A DNA stretch of 54,893 nt from an uncultured Erysipelotrichaceae bacterium (GTDB taxonomy: Bacteria; Bacillota_I; Bacilli_A; RF39; UBA660), in NCBI GenBank assembly GCA_902767245.1, contig CACXGO010000017.1, positions 1 through 54,893 on the forward strand, in the 5' to 3' direction. Positions 13,780 through 25,908 of this stretch are shown in pieces. Both the position numbers and the translations under genes were made by a program. Below the pieces are notes generated by a model. That model had not been told where the DNA came from and made no database searches. It saw only the letters and a list, made by a program, of their open reading frames with translations. Position 1 is the first letter of the stretch. Every line of letters starts with the position of its first letter.

Positions 13780-14208
13780 ATGTATAACTATAGAAACGAT
13801 TACTATAATTATTTAAATAACAATTATAATGTTCCAAACTATAATCAACCAAAAATTAATAATATTTTTAATCCATATCAAGGTCTTATAAGGGGAAATA
13901 TGTTTCCGGATTTATACAACTACTATAAAGTGGATAAACCATATAATATAAATCCTGGTAATGAACAAGCCGAGATTTTGACCAATATTGATGCATATTC
14001 ATTCGCATTAAACGATTTAAAGCTTTATTTGGATGTTCACCCAGAAGATTCAAAATATATTAATTTATATAACGAGTATGTAAATGAGTATAAGAAAAAT
14101 GTTTTAGAATATCAAAGAAAATATGGAAGCTTAGAAGCTGATTCTATTAATGATGCAAATAAATGGAATTGGGTTTCTGAACCATGGCCATGGCAGGGAG
14201 GAAAGTAA
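13780..14208 (+). CDS. cotJB: Spore coat protein: CotJA-CotJB fusion
   Basis: A 142-residue protein that appears to join two coat proteins encoded separately in Bacillus. An Asn/Tyr-rich N-terminus is followed by a CotJA-like segment, GLIRGNMFPDLYNYYK near residues 35-50. From about residue 68 the CotJB pattern appears: NIDAYSFALNDLKLYLDVHP, then YNEYVNEYKK and the ending WVSEPWPWQGGK. CotJB and CotJC form an inner coat complex made in the mother cell. Strong ribosome site GGGAGG. The next gene is cotJC, starting two bases after this stop. No standard promoter seen, consistent with a sporulation sigma factor, which could not be identified. Confidence 0.8.
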   Translation: MYNYRNDYYNYLNNNYNVPNYNQPKINNIFNPYQGLIRGNMFPDLYNYYKVDKPYNINPGNEQAEILTNIDAYSFALNDLKLYLDVHPEDSKYINLYNEYVNEYKKNVLEYQRKYGSLEADSINDANKWNWVSEPWPWQGGK

Positions 14209-14209
14209 T

Positions 14210-14770
14210 ATGTGGGCATATGAAAAAAGACTTGAATATCCAGTTAATATAAAGAAAAAAGATTTAAAAATGGCTAAATATTTGATAGCACAATATGGTG
14301 GACCAGATGGTGAATTAAGTGCAGCATTACAATATTTGAATCAAAGATACACAATGCCAGATGAAAGAGGTAAAGCATTACTTACAGATATTGGCACTGA
14401 AGAACTTGCTCATATTGAAATGATAGCTGCAATGATTAGTCAGCTTACAAGTGGAGCATCAATTGAAGAATTAGAGAATATTAACATGGGAGCTCACTTT
14501 ACAATGCATGATCATGCCTTATTTCCAGCTGACCCAAACGGAGTTCCTTTTCAAGCTTCATATATATCAGCAACGGGAGATTATATTGCAGATTTAGAAT
14601 CAGATATGGCATCAGAGCAAAGAGCAAGAGCTACTTACGAGCATTTAATGGATTTAACGAGTGATCCTGATTTACTAGCACCACTTTCATTTTTGAGGCA
14701 AAGAGAAATTGTTCATTATCAAAGATTTAAAGAATTAAGAAATTATTATTTAGAAAATAAGGTAAAATAA
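14210..14770 (+). CDS. cotJC: Spore coat protein CotJC, manganese-catalase fold
   Basis: A 186-residue di-manganese catalase-like coat protein. It starts MWAYEKRLEYPV, the usual CotJC N-terminus. Metal-binding helices are visible at GPDGELSAALQYLNQRY, GTEELAHIEMIAAMI (the EExxH motif) near residue 60, and ASEQRARATYEHLM and LRQREIVHYQRF in the second half. The ligand residues are kept, so catalase or peroxide protection in the coat is plausible. The ATG at 14210 has GGGAGG seven bases upstream; a longer in-frame reading from 14150 overlaps CotJB and has no ribosome site. Shorter than free manganese catalases, which have a longer C-terminal part. Confidence 0.94.
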   Translation: MWAYEKRLEYPVNIKKKDLKMAKYLIAQYGGPDGELSAALQYLNQRYTMPDERGKALLTDIGTEELAHIEMIAAMISQLTSGASIEELENINMGAHFTMHDHALFPADPNGVPFQASYISATGDYIADLESDMASEQRARATYEHLMDLTSDPDLLAPLSFLRQREIVHYQRFKELRNYYLENKVK

Positions 14771-14771
14771 A

Positions 14772-14796
14772 AAAGCATAAATTCTATGCTTTCTTT
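14772..14796. terminator. Bidirectional terminator after cotJC
   Basis: AAAGCATA, loop AATTC, TATGCTTT. T-rich on the + side, and on the - strand the hairpin is followed by a seven-T run. It can end cotJC and also the reverse-strand 40-codon gene. Confidence 0.8.
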
Positions 14797-14918
14797 TAAT
14801 TTTTTTGAATACTTTCTTTTAAACAGATTATTTCAAATATTTTAATCAAGGCATCCTTATCCTTTGAAAAATCGGCGTTTAATAAATCTGCTAATTCTTT
14901 GTTTGTATATTTTTCGAT
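14796..14918 (-). CDS. Possible 40-residue protein with non-canonical ATC/ATT start
   Basis: An open frame on the reverse strand starting at ATC (14918), with ATT ATT directly upstream and an in-frame TGA just before the ribosome site. There is no ATG, GTG or TTG near the 5' end. AGGAGG (14926-14931) is seven bases from ATC and four from the second ATT. A good promoter lies upstream (TTAACA and TATAAT, 16-base spacing) and a terminator follows the stop. The product would read IEKYTNKELADLLNADFSKD and then an amphipathic Lys/Ile-rich tail. Codon use looks like other genes here. Known genes with ATT starts, such as infC, are poorly initiated and self-regulated. It could instead be a small RNA. 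Function unknown. Confidence 0.45.
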   Translation of the reverse strand: MEKYTNKELADLLNADFSKDKDALIKIFEIICLKESIQKN

Positions 14919-14944
14919 AATAATGCCTCCTCACTACTAATATT

Positions 14945-14972
14945 ATTATATTACAGATTTTTTAGATGTTAA
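14945..14972 (-). promoter_or_regulatory. Promoter of the 40-codon reverse-strand gene
   Basis: On the reverse strand TTAACA (14967-14972) and TATAAT (14945-14950) are 16 bases apart. The start point would be near 14938, leaving a leader of only a few bases before AGGAGG. Confidence 0.6.
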
Positions 14973-15041
14973 GAAATAATTTCTGATTAATAGTAAAAAA
15001 GTGTAAAATTTAAAAAATTTTTACTTATATCTAAAAAAGTA

Positions 15042-15070
15042 TTGAATTTGTTAATTAAAATTGTTAAAAT
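15042..15070 (+). promoter_or_regulatory. Promoter of tRNA-His
   Basis: TTGAAT at 15042-15047 and TAAAAT at 15065-15070, 17 bases apart, about 20 bases before the tRNA. Confidence 0.5.
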
Positions 15071-15090
15071 ATACCATGTAAATGTTTTAT

Positions 15091-15167
15091 GGCGTGGTTG
15101 GTGAAGTGGTTAACACGGTGGATTGTGGTTCCATTATGCGTGGGTTCGATTCCCACACCGCGCCCCA
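15091..15167 (+). tRNA. tRNA-His(GUG)
   Basis: The anticodon loop TTGTGGT gives GTG. The acceptor has the extra 5' G (G-1, base 15091) pairing with C73 (15164), the identity mark of tRNA-His. T arm GTGGG/CCCAC is perfect, and CCA is encoded. It stands alone with its own promoter and terminator. Confidence 0.95.
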
Positions 15168-25311: not shown

Positions 25312-25322
25312 TAATAAAAAAG

Positions 25323-25348
25323 AAATCAAGAGAAATCTTGATTTTTTT
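25323..25348 (+). terminator. Intrinsic terminator of murD
   Basis: AAATCAAG, loop AGAAAT, CTTGATTT and T-run. Confidence 0.85.
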
Positions 25349-25404
25349 GTGAACAAAAAAGGAAAACAAAAAAATTATTGTATGTTAGTAATTAAGAAGC
25401 ATAA

Positions 25405-25416
25405 GTTGCCTTGATT
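25405..25416 (+). promoter_or_regulatory. 5' arm of a long-range RNA pairing in the small toxin-like mRNA
   Basis: GTTGCCTTGATT can pair along all 12 bases (one G-U pair) with AATCAAGGTAAC at 25568-25579 in the same transcript. The pair encloses the ribosome site and the 31-codon gene. Confidence 0.4.
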
Positions 25417-25447
25417 ATTTTTATTTCGAAGGATGGAGGTGGTAACC

Positions 25448-25543
25448 ATGAGTAAAAGATATTACACTTTAAGTATAATGATGCTTATTGTTCTAATACT
25501 TTTCCTTCTGCTATTGCTTATCATTGAAATAAAAAAATATTAG
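25448..25543 (+). CDS. 31-residue hydrophobic peptide, probable type I toxin
   Basis: The product starts MSKRYYTLSIMMLIV and contains a 17-residue all-hydrophobic helix, ending EIKKY. Small size, one membrane helix and charged ends resemble type I toxins of Gram-positive bacteria (TxpA, BsrG, Fst types), but I recognise no family member. A strong ribosome site GGAGGTGG is five bases upstream. A reverse-strand promoter and terminator define an antisense RNA over its 3' end, and a 12-base long-range pairing in the mRNA may hide the ribosome site. Lies between murD and the serS T-box. It could instead be an ordinary small membrane peptide. No strong promoter is seen upstream. Confidence 0.5.
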   Translation: MSKRYYTLSIMMLIVLILFLLLLLIIEIKKY

Positions 25544-25596
25544 GTTAAAATAACCTAATAAACAAACAATCAAGGTAACACAAATTGTGCTCCTCT
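25531..25596 (-). ncRNA. Putative antisense (antitoxin) RNA, about 66 nt
   Basis: A reverse-strand promoter TTGAAA (25627-25632) and TATAAT (25604-25609) with 17-base spacing predicts a start near 25596. The RNA would cover the last few codons and 3' region of the 31-codon gene, and end at the hairpin TATTAGGTTA-AAA-TAACCTAATA (25538-25560), which is followed on this strand by seven T. It also contains GTTACC, complementary to GGTAAC by the start codon of the peptide gene. Confidence 0.5.
25538..25560 (-). terminator. Terminator of the putative antisense RNA
   Basis: A perfect 10-base inverted repeat around AAA. The T-run exists only in the reverse direction, so it ends a reverse transcript; the TAG stop of the peptide gene lies in the stem. 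Confidence 0.65.
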
Positions 25597-25603
25597 ATAA
25601 ATA

Positions 25604-25632
25604 ATTATAGATTAAAATAAAAAATATTTCAA
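25604..25632 (-). promoter_or_regulatory. Promoter of the putative antisense RNA
   Basis: Reverse strand TTGAAA then 17 bases then TATAAT. Confidence 0.6.
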
Positions 25633-25661
25633 GAACTATTAAAAAAATTGATAACAATATG

Positions 25662-25690
25662 TTGACTATAAAATTTTAGAATTGTATAAT
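25662..25690 (+). promoter_or_regulatory. Promoter of the serS T-box transcript
   Basis: TTGACT at 25662-25667 and TATAAT at 25685-25690 with 17-base spacing, the best match to the housekeeping consensus in the window. Confidence 0.75.
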
Positions 25691-25696
25691 TGTTTT

Positions 25697-25889
25697 ATAA
25701 ATCGATGAAAGAGAATAGTAACTTGAACTATTATGTTTAGAAAGCTAGTGATTGATGAAAACTAGTCATAATGTTTTTGCGAATCTACTCTGGATGAGAG
25801 AAGCAAACTTCTCCGGGAGACCGTTATTAAAAATAAGGACTAAAGTAGGATGGTACCGCGCGTAAGCACTCCTATATTAGTCTTTTTTT
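25697..25889 (+). ncRNA. T-box riboswitch (serine) leader of serS
   Basis: The leader contains the conserved T-box AGGATGGTACCGCG (25849-25862). A terminator hairpin follows (GACTAA with TTAGTC, then seven T, about 25840-25888). The stem I region carries GAATCTACTC near 25780, which puts UCU, a Ser codon, at the specifier position. In known T-boxes, uncharged tRNA binds the specifier and the T-box, and the antiterminator forms so the synthetase gene is read. Serine starvation should therefore raise serS expression. Confidence 0.9.
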
Positions 25890-25908
25890 GTTAGAAAGGG
25901 AGATATAA

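Follow-up and report, generated by a model that had tools for sequence, protein, structure and literature searches.

On the minus strand of a small-genome Bacillota-like bacterium, between the spore coat gene cotJC and tRNA-His (positions 14772-14972 of the window, by which we mean the whole stretch of 54,893 nucleotides that was analysed), lies an orphan open reading frame (ORF) that is perhaps best read as a lineage-specific small protein gene with its own short mRNA, weakly translated from an ATC codon at 14918, a start of the kind that IF3 rejects. This is a reading that we find almost as easy to believe as to doubt. The ORF would be transcribed from its own promoter as a short mono-cistronic mRNA (~165 nt) that ends at a terminator common with cotJC; ribosomes would bind the AGGAGG and start inefficiently at the ATC (less probably at the ATT at 14921), and the product would be a 40-residue soluble helical-hairpin protein. 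Since ATC is an IF3-rejected start codon, expression is predicted to be low and to rise when IF3 is scarce, and control of the ORF by IF3 is plausible.

A small gene with an ATC or ATT start had been proposed in the initial annotation of this DNA, and it remains the best fit, supported by the codon score, by shuffled sequences, by a modal spacing between Shine-Dalgarno (SD) sequence and start, and by the organism's own infC, which starts at ATC. The ATC reading is weakened, however, by the lack of any homologue in the searches, by an SD that reads AGGAGGC without extension, by the draft state of the genome, and by the fact that a one-base change from ATG to ATC suffices, such that a gene with a lost ATG would look identical.

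Anatomy of the interval

The features of the locus are collected in Table 1. The promoter, the AGGAGG, the terminator and a frame devoid of canonical starts had all been described at the outset, and each was found again at its place; the same holds for an in-frame TGA at the ribosome site that leaves ATC and ATT as starts.

Table 1. Features of the interval between cotJC and tRNA-His and of its flanks, in window coordinates
Feature	Position	Strand	Remarks
-35-like hexamer TTAACA	14967..14972	-	11/12 match, counted jointly with -10
-10 hexamer TATAAT	14945..14950	-	16 nt past -35; 11/12 with -35
Predicted transcript start	~14938	-	predicted from the promoter
Shine-Dalgarno AGGAGG	14926..14931	-	in-frame TGA overlaps it
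ATT, alternative start codon	14919..14921	-	4 nt after AGGAGG
ATC, likeliest start codon	14916..14918	-	7 nt after AGGAGG
40-codon ORF plus stop	14796..14918	-	(I/M)EKYTNKELADLLNADFSKDKDALIKIFEIICLKESIQKN; predicted two-helix hairpin product
Predicted long-range RNA hairpin	14848..14929	-	SD/start region GAGGCAUU..UUAUCGAAAAAU pairs with AUUUUUC..GAUAA.GAUGCCUU; weakly supported
Terminator hairpin common to cotJC and ORF	14769..14795		U-rich tails on both strands; from sequence and fold
cotJC, Mn-catalase family spore coat gene	14210..14770	+	convergent to ORF
tRNA-His (GTG)	15092..15167	+	divergent to ORF

Beyond the TATAAT, the minus strand reads AATATTAGTAGTGAGGAGGCATTATTATCGAAAAATATACA..., up to the stop of the ORF, a TAA at 14798-14796. 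In-frame stops, including the TGA, lie immediately 5' of the coding part, and near its 5' end the frame holds no ATG, GTG or TTG. After the SD only ATT, ATT and ATC follow, the first of them (14924) standing just 1 nt past the SD as a third start candidate, and the sole canonical in-frame codon is a TTG 17 codons from the end. Counted from the ATC the ORF has 40 codons, 39 of them sense codons that follow the ATC; counted from the ATT it has 41. A start at the GTG at 14934, which would yield a 25-aa basic peptide, was rejected as being in the wrong frame. The terminator hairpin (14795-14769) contains just two G-C pairs and for that reason did not pass the filter of the terminator prediction.

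Elsewhere in the window, a single ORF at 13780-14208 carries both a CotJA-like domain (below cut-off) and a CotJB domain, and ORFs similar in length and arrangement stand before cotJC in the relatives that were read. About 600 bp before serS (25312-25908) are free of called genes and gave no Rfam match at the gathering score.

Coding signal, chance and relatives

The intergenic DNA of the locus is AT-rich. In 42% of 3000 dinucleotide shuffles of 14771-15091 an open run of 44 codons appeared by itself, so that the length of the ORF is by itself little evidence. The promoter taken alone is also weak evidence, because ten 11/12 promoter-like sites occur across the window; such a match arose in 3.9% of the shuffles. 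None of the 3000, however, gave an AGGAGG followed at 4-10 nt by 40 or more open codons.

The strongest evidence that the ORF is coding is its codon score. The ORF scores 11.1 bits, which bears out an earlier claim of gene-like codon composition: real genes of the window, taken in 42-codon pieces, score 11.8 on average (sd 7.4), as against -12.8 (sd 6.8) for random sense codons, and not one of 5000 random sense-codon strings scored as high as the ORF. The window contains 360 open stretches of 36-80 codons, of which just four score so high, and another of the four is evidently rpmF. We judge that a protein is encoded at this locus, or was until recently.

A search for the 40-residue product in related genomes, suggested in the initial annotation as a check, returned no homologue from 60 relatives, 386 genomes of the family and 395 of the class (overlapping sets). 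The best E-values per genome, 0.006-0.03 across hundreds of genomes, fell mostly within unrelated long frames, and they are at chance level, since values near 0.01 per genome are expected from hundreds of genomes. Searches with the peptide of phage and plasmid sequences (tblastn), Pfam, PHROGs, NCBIfam and the PDB gave either nothing or weak matches; a partial match to the Pyrin domain (PF02758; positions 37-73 of 76, 17.4 bits against a cut-off of 22.9) was taken as chance. The pattern ADFxKDKDA gave 32 matches in GTDB contigs, all of them unrelated, and none in IMG/VR.

Gene order accounts for some of this. The relatives carry tRNA-His upstream of a cotJB-cotJC pair and divergent from it, with other genes after cotJC; the interval between cotJC and tRNA-His is by this comparison a new junction in the host species, which would explain in part why homologues are missing. 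In the one further genome of the genus (G001) no match to cotJC was found; its contig starts within tRNA-His, so that this genome is silent on the locus. The source genome, a draft assembly of 46 contigs, is 76% complete.

These observations bear on the idea that the ORF is a chance open frame, or what is left of a longer gene that arrived with the rearrangement joining cotJC to tRNA-His. The novelty of the junction and the abundance of long open runs in AT-rich DNA would suit such an origin, but the AGGAGG at proper spacing from the frame, never seen in the shuffles, and the gene-like codon score would not, and no longer protein homologous to the frame was found in the searches run. We consider this origin very improbable.

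Two relatives (L042 and L043) have a small gene at the place of the orphan ORF, convergent to cotJC; it is Xre-type helix-turn-helix-like, and by eye its sequence is unrelated to that of the ORF. In several genomes of the family, cotJC itself is split in two by an element of 4-37 kb (L275 in G112; L276/L277 in G028; L278/L279 in G015; L280/L281 in G103). The split falls at about residue 32 or at residues 65-69, and beside the junction lies a large serine recombinase (482-527 aa). A literature search found no paper linking cotJC to an intervening element; these elements are skin-like, in that they interrupt a sporulation gene.

The start codon and its precedents

The ATC of the ORF sits at a modal distance from its SD. 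Among 50 ATG genes that follow AGGAGG in the same genome, 14 have a spacing of 6 nt, 13 one of 7 nt, and 9 the 4 nt of the ATT at 14921. On comparative evidence, the organism also appears to initiate at ATC elsewhere, as shown by its infC, which reads GGAGGTGTCATTTATCGCT / GGAGGTGTCATTTATCGCTAGCAAAGAA. In 19 of 19 family genomes examined (loci L122-L147), infC begins with ATC (11) or ATA (8), 7-9 nt after GGAGG, three ATT-ATC doublets being read as ATC by alignment; some of these genomes (L127, L146) have no canonical start near the SD.

A survey of the organism's own genome covered AGGAGG and GGAGGT sites with ATA, ATC or ATT at 4-9 nt, most of which proved to lie inside genes or to have a canonical start. 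Besides infC and the ORF, two SD-anchored non-canonical starts remain as convincing candidates. One is the ATA of a predicted secreted protein of 440 codons (L200 137-1456; G000:C29:50836-52155, minus strand, site C29:52153), with the start region AGGAGGTGATAAAAATA and the extended SD AGGAGGTGAT; the same-genus orthologue, 61% identical, has GTG exactly where the ATA sits. The other is an apparent SD-anchored ATT in a serine recombinase gene (L195; G000:C28, site C28:25709, minus strand; AGGAGGAAGAATATTATT), for which an in-frame ATG ~30 codons upstream is an alternative start. Given infC and these two candidates, the ORF does not stand alone in its genome.

Studies in other bacteria supply precedents. 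IF3 represses starts other than ATG, GTG and TTG, and infC starts with ATT in E. coli and with ATC in Streptomyces (PMC5472188). In S. aureus, non-canonical starts are used by infC (AUA), ccpN (AUA), citZ (AUA) and the 61-aa cvfC1 (AUU); these sites have extended SD pairing, and reporters for ccpN, citZ and cvfC1 gave roughly 10% of the AUG level in poor medium (PMC13009471). The best reading of the ORF is that it joins this already known kind, the non-AUG small genes such as cvfC1. As in infC, cvfC1 and ccpN, there is no canonical in-frame start suitably spaced from the SD, and the organism, judging from the sequence conservation of the infC ATC, initiates at the same codon elsewhere.

The likenesses have limits. 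The ORF shares with infC of its own genome a strong SD, an ATC at 7-9 nt and the absence of a canonical start, but the infC start is conserved and autoregulatory through IF3, whereas the ORF has neither homologues nor a known link to translation. The ORF resembles cvfC1 and ccpN, Bacillota genes of small size or regulatory function that pair a strong SD with a non-canonical start and initiate at a low level, and it is likewise predicted to initiate poorly; unlike those genes, which are conserved and have an extended SD and measured initiation (PMC13009471), it is an orphan whose SD reads AGGAGGC. Its SD is a perfect core followed by CAUU instead of UGAU, which, if the anti-SD of the genome is taken to be the standard one, falls short of the extended pairing described in S. 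aureus (PMC13009471), while infC and the 440-codon ATA gene of the same genome have the extended SD GGAGGUG(AU). Control by IF3 has been proposed outside infC for Streptomyces sigR, although that is a known regulatory gene with a GTC start, repressed by IF3 and experimentally tested (PMC5472188).

Perhaps, instead, the ORF was until very recently a normal small gene with an ATG start, which has become ATC either by natural mutation, leaving an incipient pseudogene that may still be weakly translated, or by assembly error. We take this possibility seriously, even though on balance we doubt it. Only one base separates ATC from ATG, the codon stands at one of the commonest SD-to-ATG spacings, the ORF is an orphan and its genome a draft, and for citZ of NCTC 8325-derived S. 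aureus strains an AUA start restricted to that lineage has been described (PMC13009471). However, the remaining frame, the promoter, the SD and the terminator are all intact, the called genes of the window look unbroken by eye, and the genome has further non-canonical starts, one of them conserved.

A bolder reading, which we think unlikely, makes the ORF one of a few genes of this lineage that respond to IF3 and are expressed jointly as its level drops; the members would be infC (ATC/ATA), the 440-residue predicted secreted protein (ATA), the serine recombinase (ATT) and the 40-residue protein (ATC). Because gene callers accept only ATG, GTG and TTG, they overlook or misannotate genes like the ORF, and likewise the real N-terminus of infC. 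Should ATC truly serve as a start outside infC, the SD-anchored ATC, ATA and ATT starts described here would constitute a short candidate list of IF3-controlled genes.

RNA structure and the predicted product

Could the locus specify a small regulatory RNA rather than a protein, a structured transcript of ~165 nt with the AGGAGG forming part of a stem? The SD/start region of the RNA can pair with codons ~20-27, and the predicted hairpin (-17.7 kcal/mol), which would sequester the AGGAGG and the start region, was equalled in stability by 13 of 1000 shuffles of 14838-14938 and by none of 1000 shuffles of 14838-14930; the fold of the whole transcript, terminator included, has a z of -2.64. On the other hand, 136 of 1000 synonymous resamplings of the frame folded equally well, and folds as stable occur in 11.6% of all 101-nt windows, so that the hairpin, unremarkable for the window, is given little weight. 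The gene-like codon composition argues against a regulatory RNA as well, and Rfam gave no match at the locus at the gathering score, the S4-Flavobacteria leader (E 0.28, below gathering) being rejected. A regulatory RNA in place of a protein gene seems to us improbable.

For the 40-residue protein of the favored reading, a Foldseek search with the single-sequence model found no PDB match. Folded alone by AlphaFold, the peptide forms two helices (8-15 and 23-41), with a mean pLDDT of 80.
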